Source: Acuticoccus sp. I52.16.1
GTDB taxonomy: Bacteria; Pseudomonadota; Alphaproteobacteria; Rhizobiales; Amorphaceae
Direction of reading: 5' to 3'
Assembly (NCBI RefSeq): GCF_022865125.1
Contig: NZ_CP094828.1
Coordinates: 124,001 to 188,000 of the forward strand
DNA length: 64,000 nt
Position numbers and translations under genes: made by a program. Of this stretch, positions 15,526 through 23,405 are shown piece by piece; the first letter of the stretch is position 1, and every line of letters begins with the position of its first letter. The notes below the pieces were generated by a model, which was not told the origin of the DNA, ran no database searches, and was given only the letters and a program-made list of their open reading frames with translations.

Positions 15526-15747
15526 CGGCGGACCACTTCCCGCGGGCGGCGCGAGAATCGGGGAAAATTTGCCTCTCCGTCGAGGCCAACCTCGGAATCT
15601 CCCCTTGACCGGGGCACGCAACCATAGGATGTTCTTCATCTGGTCGCCGGCCCCGTGTCGATGCTATACGGGGTGAATATCTCTGGGGAGTGCGTCCTCT
15701 CGCAAGGAGTCACGCAGCCTACCGGTCGGTGCAGAGCGGAGCAGGCG

Positions 15748-18492
15748 ATGATGATCGAGTCCGCGACGAGGTCGGAAAAGAAGACCTTCGAGTGGATTCG
15801 CACGAGCCGTCCCGGTCATGGTGGATCCAGTCCCGGCCCCCCTGCATCGGGGTCATCTGAAACGTGGTTGCTGGCGGTCTTCAAATCTATGCCGATCACC
15901 AGACAGCTCATCATCACGATGGTCACCCTCGTGCTCCTCACCTCGGCGGGGGTGGGCGTGGCGGTCTACTTCGCGGTCGAGCGTGCGTTGCTGCCGCAAG
16001 GCGTCGTGCGGGTCGAGGCCTCGGCCAGCCAGCTCGCCACGCAGATCAAGGTGCAGGCCAACAACGACCGCCTCAACCTCGACGCGCGCGCCCATTCCGG
16101 AGCCATCGCCTCGTTCATCAATTCGGCGATGAACCAGGATAGCGCCAACCGCATCGACCTCGAGATCGACGTGTGGCGCCAGATCGTCGAGAACCTGTTC
16201 GTCGCCGAGCTGGCGGCCAAGCCCAGCTACCTGCAGATGCGCCTGATCAACGCGGCGGGCGACGAGGTGATCCGCGTCGACCGCACCGCCAGCGGCGAGC
16301 CTCCCCGCGTCGTCCCCCCTGACGAGATGCAGGAAAAAAACGCGCGCCCCTACGTCGACGAGACGTTGGCGCTGGCGACGGGCGAGACCTACATTTCCCC
16401 GATCGATCTCAATCGCGAGTTCGGCGAGATCGTCCAGCCGCCGACGCCGGTCCTGCGCATCGCCACGCCGATGGACGCCGCGAACGGCGAGCGGTACGGC
16501 CTGCTGATCATCAACATCGACCTGCGCGACACGTTCGACAATCTGCGCGCCGGCCTCGGCTCGCTGGGCGAACTCTTCGTCGTCAACGCCAGCGGCGACT
16601 TCCTGCTCCATCCCGACCAGACCAAGGAGTTCGCCTTCGAGCGTGGTCCTCCGGTCCGGTTCGGCGATGACCGCCCGGATCTCGCCGCCGCCGTCGGCGC
16701 CTCGTCCAGCGGGAGCACCGTGGTTCACGAGGACGGCCGGTCGATCGCGCTCGCCTGGGCCGACGTCCCGCTCGACGCCGCCGGCGCCGACCTGACCGTC
16801 GTCGTCGCGCTGCCGGCGCGGGCCGCCCGCGCGGCCCCGGCGATCCGCAACTCGGCGATGATCGTCGGGACCATCGCCGCCCTTCTCGCCACGATCGCGG
16901 TGGTGGTGGCCGGCCGGGCGATCGTGCGCCCCATCATCGCCATGACCGACGGACTGGCCGATGCCAGCGCCGGACGGCCGGTCATGCTGCCGATCGGCCG
17001 CGGCGGCGAGATCGGCCTGCTGGCGCGCGCGCTCGCCGAATATATCGAGCGCGAACGGTTCGACAGCGCGATCATCGGCGGCTCCAACGACGCGATCCTG
17101 ACCACCGACCCCTCCGGCCACATCACCCGCTGGAACCCCGCCGCGGCGGCCCTGTTCGGCGTCGCGGTCGAGGACGCGATCGGGCGCGACGTCGACAATG
17201 TCGTCTTGCCCGGCGGCACCGCCTCGCTGCACCAGACCATCGACGACCAGCTCGACGGCAAAGAGAGCCGCCACCTCGACATCACCCGCACCCGGCGAGA
17301 CGGGTCGAAGGTCGACATTTCGCTGCGCACCTCGCCGGTGCTGGCCCCGGACGGGTCGATGATGGGCATCTCGATCATCGCGCGCGACATGACCGCCGAG
17401 CGATACGCGCAGGAGACCTTCCGTCTCTCGGTCGAGCATTCCCCCGCCGGCAAGGTGCTCACCGACGCGGAAGGCAAGATCATCCTCGTCAACGCCCAGA
17501 TCGAGAGTGCCTTCGGCTACTCGCGCGACGAACTGATCGGCCAATCGGTGGAGACCCTGGTGCCCTCGGCGATCAAACGGCGGCACGAGACGTTCGTGCG
17601 CGACTTCCTGGCCGACCCGCAGCGCCGGGCGATGGGCGAGGATCGCGAGATCTTCGGCCAGCGCAAGGACGGCGGCGTCTTCCCCATCGAGGTGGGCCTG
17701 ACGCCGGTCCCCTCGCGCAACGGAACGCTGGTGCTGGCGGCGGTGGTGGACGTGTCGGCCGAGCGCGCCGCCAAGCGTGACCTGATCGCGCGCACCGAGG
17801 AGCTGGAGCGCTCCAACAAGGATCTGATGCAGTTCGCCTACGTCGCCTCGCACGACCTGCAGGAGCCGCTGCGGATGGTGGCAAGCTTCACCCAGCTCCT
17901 GTCCGACCGTTACAAGGGCCAGCTCGACGAGCGGGCCGACAAGTACATCCACTTCGCCGTCGACGGCGCGCGGCGCATGCAGGGGCTCATCAACGACCTC
18001 CTGGAATATTCGCGCGTCGGGTCGACCATGCAGCCGCTGGAGCCGACCGACGTCGGTGCCGTCTGGGCCCAGGTCCAGCGCATGTTGCAGTCGATGATCC
18101 GCACCAACGAGGCGACGATCGAGGGCGAAGCGCTTCCCTCCGTGATGGCCGATCCCGAGCAGCTCTCGCGCCTGCTCCAGAACCTCCTCAGCAACGCGAT
18201 CAAGTTCCGCAGCGAGGAGCCGCCCCGCGTGGTGCTGCGGGCCGAGCGCCAAGGCGCGTTCTGGTGCCTGAGCCTCAGCGACAACGGCATCGGCTTCGAC
18301 GCGCGCGACGCGGAACGGATCTTCGAGATGTTCCAGCGCCTCAACGAGCGCGGCCGCTACGACGGCACGGGGCTGGGTCTTGCCATCGCCAAGCGCATCG
18401 TCGATCAGCATGGGGGGCAGATCTGGGCCGAGAGCGCGCCCGGCCATGGCACCACGTTCTACTTCACGCTACGCGCCGCGACGACCGGATGA
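15748..18492 (+). CDS. Membrane sensor histidine kinase (extracytoplasmic sensor-HAMP-PAS-PAS-HisKA-HATPase)
   Basis: A 914-residue kinase heading the Kai island. Membrane segments lie at about residues 51-75 and 368-389 and enclose a roughly 290-residue extracytoplasmic sensor, probably Cache-like. A HAMP linker follows (389-437), then two PAS domains (about 440-548 and 557-674). The HisKA domain has the phospho-acceptor in YVASHDLQEPLR (H702), the version found in phytochrome-type kinases. The HATPase has its N-box in NLLSNAIKF and G-boxes in SDNGIGF and GTGLGLAI. The frame is open from a GTG at 15655, but the ATG at 15748 has GGAG six bases upstream. Its stop overlaps the response regulator start (ATGA), so the two are a likely cognate pair. 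Confidence 0.9.
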   Translation: MMIESATRSEKKTFEWIRTSRPGHGGSSPGPPASGSSETWLLAVFKSMPITRQLIITMVTLVLLTSAGVGVAVYFAVERALLPQGVVRVEASASQLATQIKVQANNDRLNLDARAHSGAIASFINSAMNQDSANRIDLEIDVWRQIVENLFVAELAAKPSYLQMRLINAAGDEVIRVDRTASGEPPRVVPPDEMQEKNARPYVDETLALATGETYISPIDLNREFGEIVQPPTPVLRIATPMDAANGERYGLLIINIDLRDTFDNLRAGLGSLGELFVVNASGDFLLHPDQTKEFAFERGPPVRFGDDRPDLAAAVGASSSGSTVVHEDGRSIALAWADVPLDAAGADLTVVVALPARAARAAPAIRNSAMIVGTIAALLATIAVVVAGRAIVRPIIAMTDGLADASAGRPVMLPIGRGGEIGLLARALAEYIERERFDSAIIGGSNDAILTTDPSGHITRWNPAAAALFGVAVEDAIGRDVDNVVLPGGTASLHQTIDDQLDGKESRHLDITRTRRDGSKVDISLRTSPVLAPDGSMMGISIIARDMTAERYAQETFRLSVEHSPAGKVLTDAEGKIILVNAQIESAFGYSRDELIGQSVETLVPSAIKRRHETFVRDFLADPQRRAMGEDREIFGQRKDGGVFPIEVGLTPVPSRNGTLVLAAVVDVSAERAAKRDLIARTEELERSNKDLMQFAYVASHDLQEPLRMVASFTQLLSDRYKGQLDERADKYIHFAVDGARRMQGLINDLLEYSRVGSTMQPLEPTDVGAVWAQVQRMLQSMIRTNEATIEGEALPSVMADPEQLSRLLQNLLSNAIKFRSEEPPRVVLRAERQGAFWCLSLSDNGIGFDARDAERIFEMFQRLNERGRYDGTGLGLAIAKRIVDQHGGQIWAESAPGHGTTFYFTLRAATTG

Positions 18493-18941
18493 ACATGACG
18501 GAACCGATCAAGATCCTGCTTCTAGAGGACAATCCCGCCGACGTCGAGCTGACGCGCGAGGCGTTCCTGAACCGAAAGCTCCGACTGACGCTCGACGTCG
18601 TGCATGACGGCAACGAGGCGCTGGACTACTTGCATCGGCGCGGCGTCTATGTCGGCCGGACGCTGCCGGACCTCGTCATCCTCGACCTCAATGTTCCACG
18701 GGTATCGGGCAAATCCGTCATTGCAGAAATCAAATCAACCGAGCTGCTGAAACGTCTTCCCATCGTTGTTCTCACATCATCGTCAGCGGAAACCGACGTG
18801 ATCGAGAGTTACGACTTGGGCGCGAATTGCTATGTCAACAAGCCCTTGGACTTCTCGTCGTTTGAAGATATCGTGGTGGCGCTGGAATCTTTCTGGTTCA
18901 CAGTAGTAAGGCTACCCACGATCGAGGAGGCGACGGAGTAG
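18489..18941 (+). CDS. Single-domain response regulator, Rcp1-like
   Basis: A 150-residue stand-alone receiver domain with all catalytic residues: acidic pair E13/D14, phospho-acceptor D66 in VILDLNVPRVSG, T96 and K118. The long beta4-alpha4 region and the YVNKPLDFSSFEDIV ending resemble Rcp1, the partner of phytochrome-type kinases. It overlaps the kinase gene by four bases upstream and shares one base with the pseudo-receiver gene downstream. It has no output domain, so it must act by protein contact, plausibly on the Kai proteins or the downstream kinase. Confidence 0.9.
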   Translation: MNMTEPIKILLLEDNPADVELTREAFLNRKLRLTLDVVHDGNEALDYLHRRGVYVGRTLPDLVILDLNVPRVSGKSVIAEIKSTELLKRLPIVVLTSSSAETDVIESYDLGANCYVNKPLDFSSFEDIVVALESFWFTVVRLPTIEEATE

Positions 18942-19750
18942 TGTCGGGCGAAGCCGCTCTCCGAATCCTGCATGTCGAGCAGAACCCGGCGGATGTCGCG
19001 TTGGTCCGGGAATACCTGTCGATCGAAGAACCCGAGCAGTACGTCGTCGTCCAGGTGACCAGCGTAGAAGACGGTCTCGATCTGATCGGCGACGAGGCGT
19101 TCGACGCGCTGCTGCTTCACGTTCGCCTCGCGACGGACGGGGTCCAGTCCATCCGCCGCGCGGCTCAAAGGGTGCCGGTGATCGTCATCACCGGCTACGA
19201 GGACGAGACCCTCGCGCTGGAGGCGATCGCTGCCGGCGCGCAGGACTATCTCTTCAAGAACGACCTCAGCCAGCGGAGCCTGCGCCGTTCGATCGGCTTC
19301 GCCATCAGCCGCAAGCGTGAGGCGGAGATCCGTGCGCTCAACGAAACCCTCTCTCGCCTCAAGCTCTTGGCGTCGGAGGGGTCGGCCACATCGGTCACCG
19401 CCCGCGCTCTCGGCGTCGGCCCGCTCAAGACCAGCGCGCCGGAAGTGTTCGACGAATGCGTTGGCAACTACGCACGGTTGATGAAGCGGTATATTATGGC
19501 GCCCGTACGGGACCAGGACGAGCCACGCGACGCGATGGAGCGGCTGGTCACGCGATTGGGCGATCTGGGGGCGGGGCCGAAAGACATGATCGATCTGCAC
19601 GCGGCCGCTCTCGAAGAGGCCGCCTTGACACAAAAGCAAAGAGAGGCCGGCATGATGATAGTAGAAGGCCGATTGTTCGCGCTCGAGATCATGGGTTTGC
19701 TCGTCAATTACTACCGCATCGGTCACCGACGCTTAACGTGGGGGGTGTAG
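18941..19750 (+). CDS. Pseudo-receiver protein with KaiA/RsbU-like C-terminal domain
   Basis: A 269-residue protein. Residues 1-120 fold like a receiver, but the phospho-acceptor Asp is His60 (ALLLHVRLATDG) and the second acidic residue is Gln14 (HVEQNPAD), so it should not be phosphorylated in the usual way. A charged helical linker follows (about 120-145). Residues 168-262 form an all-helical domain with the spacing of the KaiA C-terminal/RsbU N-terminal fold: a Tyr-rich first helix (NYARLMKRYI), then DMIDLH, then a last helix ending LLVNYYRIG. KaiA also has an N-terminal pseudo-receiver. The GTG start shares a base with the preceding stop (TAGTG), and its own stop overlaps kaiB in the same manner. 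The KaiA-like assignment is by eye. RsbU-type anti-sigma partner binding is the main alternative. Confidence 0.75.
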   Translation: MSGEAALRILHVEQNPADVALVREYLSIEEPEQYVVVQVTSVEDGLDLIGDEAFDALLLHVRLATDGVQSIRRAAQRVPVIVITGYEDETLALEAIAAGAQDYLFKNDLSQRSLRRSIGFAISRKREAEIRALNETLSRLKLLASEGSATSVTARALGVGPLKTSAPEVFDECVGNYARLMKRYIMAPVRDQDEPRDAMERLVTRLGDLGAGPKDMIDLHAAALEEAALTQKQREAGMMIVEGRLFALEIMGLLVNYYRIGHRRLTWGV

Positions 19751-20043
19751 TGCGGTACAGACTTCGCCTATACATCACCGGTCGGACGCCTTACTCGCAA
19801 AGGGCAATCGCCAACCTGCATGAAATCTGCGATCGCGAGCTGAAGGGCCGCTGCGACGTCGAGATCATCGACGTGCTGGAGGATCCGTCGGCGGCGGAGG
19901 AAGATCGCATCCTCGCCACGCCGACCCTCGTGCGAAAACTGCCCGAACCGGTGCGCAAGATCATCGGCGATCTGAGCGACCGCGAAAAAGTCTACATCGG
20001 TCTGGACGTGTCCCCGATCGATATCAGCGTCTCAGGCGAATAA
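19750..20043 (+). CDS. kaiB: Circadian clock protein KaiB
   Basis: A 97-residue KaiB, matching the compact form (about 100 residues) without extensions. The thioredoxin-like N-terminus (RLRLYITGRTPYSQRAIANL), the cis-Pro region ATPTLVRKLPEP and the conserved GDLSDREKVYIGLD are all present. In characterised systems KaiB switches fold and binds the CI ring of KaiC. The GTG start overlaps the stop of the pseudo-receiver gene (TAGTG). kaiC begins five bases after its stop. Confidence 0.95.
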   Translation: MRYRLRLYITGRTPYSQRAIANLHEICDRELKGRCDVEIIDVLEDPSAAEEDRILATPTLVRKLPEPVRKIIGDLSDREKVYIGLDVSPIDISVSGE

Positions 20044-20048
20044 ACAAC

Positions 20049-21572
20049 GTGGCCCCCGTGAAGGAACTCCCCAAACTGTCGACCGGGATCGCCGGTCTCG
20101 ACGAAATCTCCAACGGCGGGCTCCCGCGCGGACGATCGACCCTGATCGCCGGCACGGCCGGTAGCGGCAAGACCGTCCTCGCGCTGCAATTCCTCTATTG
20201 CGGCGTCCACTTCTTCGAGCAGAACGGCGTGCTGGTCACCTTCGAAGAGACCCCGGTGGACATGATGGCCAACGTCGCCTCCTTCGGCTGGGGCCTGGAG
20301 GAGATGGTCGAGGCCAACAAGATCGCCATCGTCGACGCCGCGCCCGACCCGTCGGAGAACGTCGTCGAGGCCGGCGGGCACGACCTCGCCGCACTCATGG
20401 CCCGCATCGAAGGCGCGGTGCGGCGCGTCAAGGCCGACCGCGTCATCCTCGACGCCGTCGGCGCTCTCTTCCCGCAGTTCAGCGACTCGCTGCTGGTGCG
20501 GCGCGAGCTGCAACGCATCCTGGCGGGCCTGCGCGAGCTGGGCGTCACCACCATCATCAACCTGGAGCGCACCGACGACGAAGGCGCCGTCGGCCGCTTC
20601 GGCATCGAGGAGTTCGTCGCCGACAACGTCCTTCTGATGCGCAACCGGCTCGACATGGAGAAGCGCCGGCGCACCATCGAGATCCTCAAGTTCCGCGGCG
20701 CCACCCATCAAAAGGGCGAATACCCCTTCACCATCGACGATCAGGACGGCGTCACCGTGCTGCCGCTGTCGGCCACCAGCCTGCAACAGTCCTCGTCGGA
20801 CACGCGCCTGTCGTCGGGCGTGAAGGAGCTGGACGACATGTGCGGGGGCGGCATCTATCGCGACTCGATCATCCTCGTCTCCGGCGCCACCGGCACCGGC
20901 AAGACGCTGATGGTGACCGAGTACGTCAAGGCCGCCATCACCGCCGGTCAGCGCGTCCTCCTCATCGGCGCGGAGGAGAGCCGCGACCAGCTCGGCCGCA
21001 ACGCCAAGGCCTGGGGCGCTGACTTCGACAAGGCCGAGGCGGACGGCCTCCTCAAGATCATCTGCCGCTATCCCGAGGTCATGGGCCTCGAGGATCACCT
21101 GCTGCAGATCAAGCGCGATATCCGCGAGTTCCAGCCGACCCGCATCGCGGTCGACTCGCTCTCCGCCTTCGAGCGCGTCTCGTCGACGAAATCCTTCCGC
21201 GAGTTCGTGATCGGGATCACCGGCTTCATCAAAGACCAGCAGATGACCGGCCTGTTCACCAACACGACGTCGATGCTGATCGGCGGCGAGTCGGTGACGG
21301 AAACGCACATCTCCACAATCACAGACTCCATTATCCTCTTGCGCTACGTGGAGTTGTTCGGCGAAATGCGCCGCGGTCTCACCGTGCTCAAGATGCGCGG
21401 CACATGGCACGAAAAGGAGATCCGCGAGTACGTGATCGACGGCAACGGCATGTCGATCAAAGGACCCTTCAAGGGGGTTCACGGCATCCTTTCCGGTATG
21501 CCGACGTATAGTTTCACGACGGAGGCCGAGCGGATGGAGACCATGTTCACACCCAGCGACCGCGCGAAATAG
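20049..21572 (+). CDS. kaiC: Circadian clock ATPase/kinase KaiC
   Basis: A 507-residue double-RecA protein. CI has Walker A GTAGSGKT (35-42) and catalytic E66/E67. CII has Walker A GATGTGKT (279-286) and catalytic E309/E310. The autophosphorylation pair is conserved as S422/T423 in THISTITDS, matching S431/T432 of Synechococcus KaiC, with T418 at the T426 position. The C-terminus after the A-loop region is about as long as in cyanobacterial KaiC and lacks the long coiled-coil extension of Rhodobacter KaiC. The start is a GTG. It should form a hexamer with slow CI ATPase and CII kinase/phosphatase activity. Confidence 0.96.
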   Translation: MAPVKELPKLSTGIAGLDEISNGGLPRGRSTLIAGTAGSGKTVLALQFLYCGVHFFEQNGVLVTFEETPVDMMANVASFGWGLEEMVEANKIAIVDAAPDPSENVVEAGGHDLAALMARIEGAVRRVKADRVILDAVGALFPQFSDSLLVRRELQRILAGLRELGVTTIINLERTDDEGAVGRFGIEEFVADNVLLMRNRLDMEKRRRTIEILKFRGATHQKGEYPFTIDDQDGVTVLPLSATSLQQSSSDTRLSSGVKELDDMCGGGIYRDSIILVSGATGTGKTLMVTEYVKAAITAGQRVLLIGAEESRDQLGRNAKAWGADFDKAEADGLLKIICRYPEVMGLEDHLLQIKRDIREFQPTRIAVDSLSAFERVSSTKSFREFVIGITGFIKDQQMTGLFTNTTSMLIGGESVTETHISTITDSIILLRYVELFGEMRRGLTVLKMRGTWHEKEIREYVIDGNGMSIKGPFKGVHGILSGMPTYSFTTEAERMETMFTPSDRAK

Positions 21573-21587
21573 CGCCACGACGGGAAC

Positions 21588-23405
21588 GTGTATCCGACTG
21601 ATGCGAATACCAAACTCCTTCTCGTCGAGGACAACCCCGCCGACGCGGAGCTGACGGCCGCCGTTCTCGAAGGGGCCGATGTCACCTTCGAGATTTTGAC
21701 CGCCGCTTCGCTCGGCACCGCCCTCAGGCTCTTGAACGACGAGCCGATCGATGCCGTCGTGCTCGATCTCAATCTCCCGGACTCGCGCGGCATCGAGACC
21801 CTGCGCCGCATGCGCGAGCAGCACCACGACGTCGCCATCGTGGTCGTCTCCGGCGCCAACCCGCCGGGCCTGCGCGGCGACGTCCTCAGCGAGGGCGCAC
21901 AGGACTTCATCTGGAAGAACGAGCCCGACTCCAACTTCCTCGCCCGCTGCATTCTCTACGCGGTCGAGCGGCACCGGGCGCAGGAGGCGCACCGCAGCGT
22001 CCGCCAGCTGCTCGACGCCAACCCCGACGCGATGATCGTCGTCGATGGCGGTGGCATCGTGCGCTACATCAACAAGGCCGCGGAGGAGCTGCTGCACGAC
22101 GGGTCTAACCTCATCGGCGAGTGGCTCGGATTCTCCTCCGGCGAGCGGCTGACCGAGATCGAGATCCTCACCGGCGGCAAGCCGCGCACCTGCGAGATGA
22201 AGGTCGCCGAGATCGAGTGGAGCGGCCAGCGCGCCACCCTCGCCGCCATCCGCGACGTGACCGAGAACCGCCTCCTCGCCGAGCAGGTCCGCGCGGCGCA
22301 GAAGATGGAGGCGATCGGCGTCCTCGCCGGCGGCGTCGCGCACGACTTCAACAACCTGCTGGTCGTCATCATGGGCAACCTGGAGTTCCTGCGCGAGGAC
22401 ATCGAGGACGAGGACCACCAGGTGATGCTCTCGCGGATCGAGACCGCCACGGAGCGCGCCCGCACCCTCACCCGCCAGCTCCTCGCCATGTCGCGCCGGC
22501 AGCCCTCGCGCCCCGTCGTGGTGCGCCCCAACGACCTCATCATCAAAAGCTACACGATGCTTCGGCCGAGCTTCCCGAAGGACATCGAGCTCGTCTTCAT
22601 CCCCGCCGAGGAGATCTGGAACATCCGGATCGACCCCAGCGAGTTCGACCAGATCCTGATGAACCTCGCCTTCAACGCCAAGCACGCCTTGCCGCACGGC
22701 GGTCGGCTTCAGGTGGACCTCGCCAACACGACGCTGGAGCGCACCGTCAACGACCTGACGCCGGGGCAATATGTGCGCGTGCAGGTGTCGGACAACGGCA
22801 CCGGCATCGCGCCCGACCACCTGACCAAGATCTTCGAGCCGTTCTTCTCCACCAAGACCGCCGGCACCGGCACCGGCCTCGGCCTCGCCATCTGCCAGGG
22901 CATCGCCCGCAAGGCGGGGGGCGACATCGTCGTCTCCAGCGAAATCGGCGTCGGCAGCACCTTCTCGGTCCTGGTCCCGCGCTGCTACGACGCCGTGACC
23001 GAGATCGATACCAAGCCGGAACTGCCGCAGATCGTCGGCGACGAGACCGTGCTGGTGGTGGAGGACGACGCCGCCGTGGCCGGCTCCATCATGCAGGCCC
23101 TGCAGATGCGCGGCTTCCGCACGATCCATGTCGACGATGGCGAGAAGGCGACACGCGTTCTCAGCGAGGGCGGCGAAACGGTCGACATCGTCCTCAGCGA
23201 CGTGGTGATGCCGCGGATGGGGGGCGTGGAGCTGGCCCGGTGGCTGGCCAAGCACCGCCCGGAGATGAAGGTGGTCCTGGCGACCGGCTATGCCGACAAT
23301 GTCGACGCCCTGCGGGCCGAGAACAATCCGCAGCACGAATTCCTGTTCAAGCCCTTCGCCCCGACCGACCTCATCGCCACCGTGCGGATGATGCTCGACC
23401 GCTGA
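21588..23405 (+). CDS. Hybrid histidine kinase (REC-PAS-HisKA-HATPase-REC)
   Basis: A 605-residue soluble kinase, 15 bases after kaiC. The N-terminal receiver has E14/D15, phospho-acceptor D60 (VVLDLNLPDSRG) and K110. A PAS-like domain covers about 135-225. The HisKA phospho-acceptor is H252 in GGVAHDFNNLL. The HATPase has SDNGTGIAP and GTGTGLGLAI. A C-terminal receiver has D538 in VLSDVVMPRMGG and K588. There are no membrane segments. Input at the first receiver and relay through the last make it a candidate output or integration node of the Kai island. It ends the operon, facing gpmI. Confidence 0.92.
   Translation: MYPTDANTKLLLVEDNPADAELTAAVLEGADVTFEILTAASLGTALRLLNDEPIDAVVLDLNLPDSRGIETLRRMREQHHDVAIVVVSGANPPGLRGDVLSEGAQDFIWKNEPDSNFLARCILYAVERHRAQEAHRSVRQLLDANPDAMIVVDGGGIVRYINKAAEELLHDGSNLIGEWLGFSSGERLTEIEILTGGKPRTCEMKVAEIEWSGQRATLAAIRDVTENRLLAEQVRAAQKMEAIGVLAGGVAHDFNNLLVVIMGNLEFLREDIEDEDHQVMLSRIETATERARTLTRQLLAMSRRQPSRPVVVRPNDLIIKSYTMLRPSFPKDIELVFIPAEEIWNIRIDPSEFDQILMNLAFNAKHALPHGGRLQVDLANTTLERTVNDLTPGQYVRVQVSDNGTGIAPDHLTKIFEPFFSTKTAGTGTGLGLAICQGIARKAGGDIVVSSEIGVGSTFSVLVPRCYDAVTEIDTKPELPQIVGDETVLVVEDDAAVAGSIMQALQMRGFRTIHVDDGEKATRVLSEGGETVDIVLSDVVMPRMGGVELARWLAKHRPEMKVVLATGYADNVDALRAENNPQHEFLFKPFAPTDLIATVRMMLDR

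Follow-up and report, generated by a model that had tools for sequence, protein, structure and literature searches.

A putative KaiA3-type clock protein with a degenerate receiver domain encoded beside kaiB and kaiC in Acuticoccus

The closest described counterparts of the protein considered here are the KaiA3 proteins, in which a receiver is joined to a KaiA C-terminal domain and whose gene lies upstream of kaiB3 and, mostly, then kaiC3, as described for Synechocystis (Kobler et al., 2024; PMC11372060). The same source names KaiA3 orthologues in Rhodospirillum, Bradyrhizobium, Roseiflexus, Chloroflexus and Chloroherpeton, describes the system as a dampened KaiC3 oscillator in vitro, names Pleurocapsa and Microcystis as the exceptions to an otherwise conserved receiver aspartate, and reports the cognate kinase of KaiA3 as still unidentified (PMC11372060). 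KaiA is held to be the component by which, in cyanobacteria, a KaiBC timer becomes an oscillator that sustains itself (PMC11372060), and kaiA homologues outside the cyanobacteria are also reported in PMC8113500. A preliminary description of the present locus had noted that KaiA is generally described as absent from non-cyanobacterial Kai systems, which these orthologues render outdated; as KaiA3 is already published from Rhodospirillum and Bradyrhizobium among others (PMC11372060), a KaiA beyond the cyanobacteria is not new. The present analysis adds a receiver that degenerated a single time in the genus Acuticoccus, where a second module has stayed intact, together with frequent kinase and response regulator neighbours as candidate input, a correlation between the KaiC tail and the presence of the gene, and apparent orphan copies. 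Within the literature collection searched, no paper links Acuticoccus with kaiC.

The window, by which we mean the whole stretch of 64,000 nucleotides analysed (contig NZ_CP094828.1 of Acuticoccus sp. I52.16.1, positions 124,001 to 188,000), belongs to a genome of 5.5 Mb (6 contigs) from which the photosynthetic reaction-centre family PF00124 is absent. Open reading frames and Pfam matches place six genes in near-gapless succession on its forward strand between positions 15655 and 23405, namely a histidine kinase, a response regulator, the kaiA-like gene, kaiB, kaiC and a hybrid histidine kinase (Table 1). The kinase stop and the regulator start overlap by 4 bases (ATGA), the regulator stop and the kaiA-like start by 1 base (TAGTG), and the last base of the kaiA-like gene is the first base of the kaiB GTG, an overlap that the preliminary description had given correctly; with only 5 bases between kaiB and kaiC, these overlaps indicate that the run is probably one operon. 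The start codon of the first kinase is uncertain and its HAMP and dCache_1 matches stay under their cut-offs, while the kaiB product reaches 110.9 bits with NCBIfam NF006798 (cut-off 110) and 107.8 bits with TIGR02654, below the cut-off of 145.3 for that model. The kaiA-like reading frame is more than a chance opening, since three further genomes of the genus hold homologues of 71, 66 and 54% identity with the gene order preserved, and dS exceeds dN for every domain and pair compared.

Table 1. Features of the kai gene run in the window
Feature	Position	Strand	Basis
Sensor histidine kinase	15655..18492	+	Pfam HK_sensor_dom_bact 3.4e-17, PAS_4 4.2e-30, HisKA 1.8e-11, HATPase_c 2e-28
Stand-alone response regulator, Asp kept (LVILDLN)	18489..18941	+	PF00072 E 2.7e-17
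KaiA3-like protein, 269 aa, GTG start	18941..19750	+	ORF, Pfam, profile, fold, neighbourhood
Degenerate (pseudo-)receiver, residues 8-121	18962..19303	+	PF00072 E 1.6e-12
His60 codon CAC at phospho-acceptor position, LPDS loop deletion just after	19118..19120	+	42-member alignment
KaiA-like four-helix C-terminal domain, residues 166-262	19436..19726	+	PDB profile, AlphaFold2, Foldseek
kaiB	19750..20043	+	PF07689 E 8.5e-29
kaiC	20049..21572	+	PF06745 E 6.1e-110; NCBIfam KaiC 698 bits (cut-off 408) and 642 bits (cut-off 546)
Hybrid PAS histidine kinase, two receivers	21588..23405	+	Pfam

By their published descriptions, KaiA3 of Synechocystis (Sll0485) and of R. rubrum (Rru_A3293) share with the window protein a receiver followed by a four-helix C-terminal domain and a gene placed before kaiB and kaiC. 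Rru_A3293 has a PAS histidine kinase upstream (PMC10931921), as does the window gene. This arrangement recurs among homologous loci, which were picked by the KaiA-like protein or its C-terminal domain alone and whose neighbours were scored with Kai, histidine kinase and response regulator queries only. Besides the window there are 41 such loci, with kaiB and kaiC nearby in 37, the order kaiA-kaiB-kaiC in 35, a response regulator immediately upstream in 25 and inside 2.5 kb in 29, and kinase and regulator both upstream in 21 (a second copy in L113 uncounted), although many of these loci come from few families and are thus not independent. Own genome included, the domain is present in 5 of 8 genomes of the genus and in at least 7 of 397 order, 6 of 385 class (A2) and 22 of 398 phylum genomes, the last three being lower bounds because sampling was even and a maximum of 9 or 10 candidates was scored per genome. 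One stop falls within the matched stretch at G831, G849 and G834 C306, where the open frames were used with no readthrough; the 42-protein set contains no KaiA-domain row for L054, of which a contig end leaves 27 residues, and L065, whose N-terminus differs, was omitted from the 41-row alignment and tree.

Several loci depart from the common arrangement. At L065:5433-7004 the KaiA domain ends a 523-aa frame with PAS domains and no Response_reg match; kaiB comes next, and then a gene for a divergent KaiC lacking the usual phosphosites. Second kaiA/kaiB/kaiC sets occur in L109, L113 and L125 of the same phylum, and kaiB is found upstream of the KaiA-like gene in the second set of L109 and in L127-L131. 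Two of the four loci without kaiBC are at contig ends (L119, L066) and two are not (L036 in G006, L063 in G357). KaiC was not found at E 1e-20 in G006, G357 or G254 (the genome of L066, at G254:C92), all of which carry a KaiA-domain protein, so that orphans without KaiC seem to exist, with the proviso that these are drafts of about 290 (G006), 160 (G254) and 20 (G357) contigs in which a KaiC may have been overlooked. The orphans at L036 (G006:C239) and L063 (G357:C3) still stand behind a histidine kinase and a response regulator, and the next protein at L063 looks like a receiver-GGDEF-EAL protein, judged from the sequence by eye.

Similarity to KaiA in the C-terminal domain becomes visible with family profiles and with the fold, not with the single sequence. 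The preliminary description had proposed a check against Pfam KaiA and RsbU_N, and the window protein matches neither: KaiA (PF07688) is missed with the whole protein and with the C-terminal domain, a PF07688 scan of 61 genomes returned zero matches (in the controls, one of 14 genomes was over the cut-off, and S. elongatus was one of five that gave a signal), and RsbU_N and a PP2C phosphatase domain were likewise not found by Pfam. Among the 42 C-terminal domains scanned singly, KaiA and RsbU_N are nevertheless the families matched by most members, KaiA first (8 domains, best E 0.0023) and RsbU_N second (4 domains, best E 0.065). A profile of 8 relatives (A2) run against the PDB with E up to 10 gave KaiA in 4 of 9 matches (E 0.042-0.18) behind a mitochondrial ribosomal protein (E 0.037), whereas with 15 relatives (A3) KaiA occupies each of the first eight places among 15 matches (E 0.0018-0.014) and the alignments extend to the terminal YR. 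With 42 relatives KaiA accounts for 8 of 14 matches at a best E of 0.0069, weaker than with 15 because distant rows had been added. Of the motifs on which the preliminary description had relied, DMIDLH is present at residues 215-220, and NYYR is present at 256-259, ten residues short of the end rather than terminal. The position that we take to be KaiA His270, presumably an important contact residue, is Leu253 in the window protein, which sets it apart from canonical KaiA; the column holds His in 10 of 41 relatives.

These E-values are modest, and families that look like chance matches score as well in single members: Gag_p24_C (0.00081) and RuvX (0.0013), each in two of the 42 C-terminal domains, reach lower E-values than KaiA. 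In the full-length Pfam scan KaiA is matched by 3 of 41 members (best E 0.0096), no more than TadZ_N or PDE8A_N, and Response_reg by 41 of 41. On these grounds the protein could be read as a response regulator of the ordinary sort, whose helical output domain is unrelated to KaiA and resembles it by convergence of helical bundles. We consider this extremely unlikely, as KaiA fills the top 8 PDB places with the 15-relative profile, Foldseek concurs and kaiBC adjoin at 37 of the 41 loci. A DNA-binding regulator of the NarL type was also considered and rejected, Response_reg being the sole Pfam match in the window protein and a C-terminal HTH being absent; GerE is not found among 25 of the 28 Pfam families matched by the 41 members. 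When the whole protein was searched against plasmid records by tblastn, 48 records matched without any of them covering more than 80% of the query, and the 15 matches listed all align to its N-terminal part; the same search with the C-terminal domains of three relatives returned nothing.

An AlphaFold2 model of the C-terminal region (7 sequences) predicts a four-helix domain (helices 167-186, 196-208, 213-230 and 233-266) with a mean pLDDT of 82 and values of at least 88 in the 10-residue blocks from residue 41 to residue 130 of the model. The preliminary description had suggested comparing this region with the KaiA C-terminal dimer, and a comparison of the predicted fold favours KaiA: KaiA makes up 7 of the best 8 Foldseek matches (probability 0.66-0.99, E 0.2-1.3), with an rmsd of 2.6 over 91 columns to 1r5q. 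With the full-length model, receivers come first and KaiA 4g86 is at rank 11 (303 columns, rmsd 18.8), a deviation indicating that the domain arrangement of full-length KaiA is unmatched. Loci L048, L049, L052 and L053 duplicate the genes of L032, L033, L036 and L037 and served for structure predictions only. Profiles and fold taken together make it likely that the C-terminal domain is kin to KaiA, no single one of these tests proving it.

KaiA and RsbU_N have a common four-helix fold, as in the N-terminal domain of RsbU of Bacillus (PMC11372060), and the preliminary description had offered partner switching of the RsbU kind as an alternative. The helical domain would then relay a stress signal by binding a kinase, of the RsbT type or another, with kaiBC as mere neighbours, a reading with which the second place of RsbU_N among Pfam families, the stressosome RsbR N-domains at Foldseek rank 10 (probability 0.33) and the three genomes that hold the protein but show no KaiC at E 1e-20 would agree. 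KaiA, however, matches more C-terminal domains and with better scores, an RsbU chain is absent from the PDB profile matches and from the best 50 of 164 Foldseek rows, and kaiB and kaiC lie nearby at most loci under the Kai, kinase and regulator queries used. Unlike RsbU, the window protein is without PP2C, shows a weak RsbU_N relationship through four relatives only and adjoins kaiBC. Partner switching is thus a very unlikely account of this gene.

The receiver of the KaiA3-like protein is recognized by Pfam (PF00072, residues 9-107, E 1.6e-12), and the preliminary description was right that its phospho-acceptor is missing, with His60 in its place (codon CAC) and Gln14 in the acidic pair. In the alignment of the window protein with its 41 relatives, the phospho-acceptor column holds Asp in 38 of 42 rows and His in 3 (the window, L031 and L032, all Acuticoccus), the one remaining row, L065, being gapped there. 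Position 14 carries Gln in the three His-bearing copies and Asp in 37 rows. All three His-bearing copies have also lost the LPDS loop that follows the phospho-acceptor, and E13, T84 and K106 are retained in the window receiver. On the 41-row tree the His label needs a single change, with a support of 100/100, and the A. kalidii protein (L033), which has kept Asp, sits outside the His group; the aspartate was lost once, inside Acuticoccus. With His in place of Asp, Gln in place of an acidic residue and the loop deleted, the window receiver cannot be phosphorylated by the usual route, and it probably works as a fixed or a protein- or ligand-sensing pseudo-receiver. Published KaiA3 differs from the window protein in this feature, where Asp has become His and the loop is gone, although the exceptions recorded in Pleurocapsa and Microcystis imply that the aspartate is no defining feature of KaiA3 membership (PMC11372060). 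Canonical Synechococcus KaiA is comparable in that a non-phosphorylatable pseudo-receiver precedes the C-terminal domain in a kaiA-kaiB-kaiC gene order, and differs in that Pfam KaiA misses the window protein and the window receiver still scores as Response_reg. The KaiA-type identification made in the preliminary description thus stands as regards a pseudo-receiver joined to a KaiA-fold C-terminal domain, and the protein is very probably a KaiA relative of the KaiA3 kind that has lost the phosphorylation switch.

Rates of substitution indicate that the window receiver is under purifying selection, weaker than that on the C-terminal domain. With synonymous sites close to saturation in these pairs, dN/dS between the window and L031 is 0.35 for the receiver and 0.09 for the C-terminal domain. 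Against L032 the receiver gives 0.26 (C-terminal domain saturated), and against the Asp-bearing L033 the receiver and the C-terminal domain give 0.61 and 0.27, respectively. As the receiver is the faster domain against L033 too, its faster rate is not special to the His copies.

A second kaiA-kaiB-kaiC-kinase set, with the receiver aspartate intact, is present in the window's genome (L035:6460-9102; G000:C1, about 1505460-1508100). It has a hybrid kinase downstream and is without a response regulator of the window's kind upstream, and the KaiA-like proteins of the two sets are 34% identical. All three genomes with a His copy (G000, G005 and G002) hold a second, Asp-bearing kaiA-kaiB-kaiC set, while G004 has a single copy that has kept Asp and no second set; as this reflects one evolutionary event, the association of the His-copy receiver with a second set is suggestive only. 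The degenerate receiver, the Asp-bearing second set in the same three genomes and the faster evolution of the receiver than of the C-terminal domain (window and L031) would all fit a KaiA3 copy that acts as a dominant-negative or titrating protein lowering KaiC phosphorylation, or one that tunes the second Kai operon. Against such a role, the His copies have a well-conserved C-terminal domain (identities with that of the window of 77 and 73%), the locus retains its own kaiB and a kaiC with both phosphosites, and the receiver is faster against the Asp-bearing L033 as well; we therefore judge it unlikely, in favour of a KaiA3-type regulator of the neighbouring KaiC.

The KaiC encoded next to the KaiA3-like protein is intact in sequence, with two Walker A motifs, the phosphosites S422/T423 in HISTITD and a C-terminal tail of 28 residues. 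In the PDB it scores 598 bits with 7dy1 and 577 with 1u9i, both of which we take to be cyanobacterial, and 353 with 8db3/8dba, presumably from Rhodobacter. As in the KaiA3 system, a long C-terminal extension is lacking. Of 40 KaiA-linked KaiC rows, 37 have a tail of 22-33 residues, the exceptions being the divergent L065 and two fragments, and the tail measures 84, 68, 46 and 17 residues in four KaiCs without an adjoining KaiA-like gene; the latter are distant (29-37% identity to the window KaiC), so that KaiC class and KaiA presence are confounded and the link between tail and gene is a correlation only. The 84-residue tail, charged and coiled-coil-like, belongs to L067:6342-8344, where kaiB and kaiC stand without an adjoining KaiA-like gene. 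The KaiA-less KaiBC timers of Rhodobacter and Rhodopseudomonas resemble the window in being alphaproteobacterial kaiBC systems but differ in the bit scores just given, lower for the presumed Rhodobacter chains than for the cyanobacterial ones, and in the tail, KaiC2 having a long extension (PMC11372060).

Taken as a whole, the locus is likely to encode a KaiA3-type regulator that drives the neighbouring KaiC and forms a KaiABC-type timer with KaiB, its receiver probably fixed or sensing. By homology with KaiA and KaiA3, the four-helix domain would dimerise, capture the short tail at the C-terminus of the adjacent KaiC in its hexameric form and so drive KaiC autophosphorylation at S422/T423. 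KaiB would oppose the KaiA3-like protein, so that the three proteins would constitute the timer, and the degenerate receiver is probably a fixed or a protein- or ligand-sensing pseudo-receiver like that of cyanobacterial KaiA, a state that would have been reached independently within Acuticoccus. The upstream histidine kinase and response regulator, a pair found beside the gene in many relatives, would be the likely source of the signal. A wider proposal, which we advance tentatively and hold to be possible rather than probable, is that Acuticoccus, a bacterium without photosynthetic reaction centres, has two full KaiABC-type modules, one gated by receiver phosphorylation and the other, that of the window, with a KaiA3 turned into a pseudo-receiver protein in an independent repetition of what happened in cyanobacterial KaiA, and that the kinase and response regulator may be the missing input to the KaiA3 clock.

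The presence of a KaiA3-type gene in at least 22 of 398 genomes of the phylum, mostly followed by kaiB and kaiC, opens to direct test whether true clocks exist in non-cyanobacteria. The kinase and response regulator pair is a candidate for the cognate kinase of KaiA3, the gap noted by Kobler et al. (PMC11372060), and the occurrence of a phosphorylatable and a degenerate KaiA3 within one genus offers a natural experiment on the role of the receiver.
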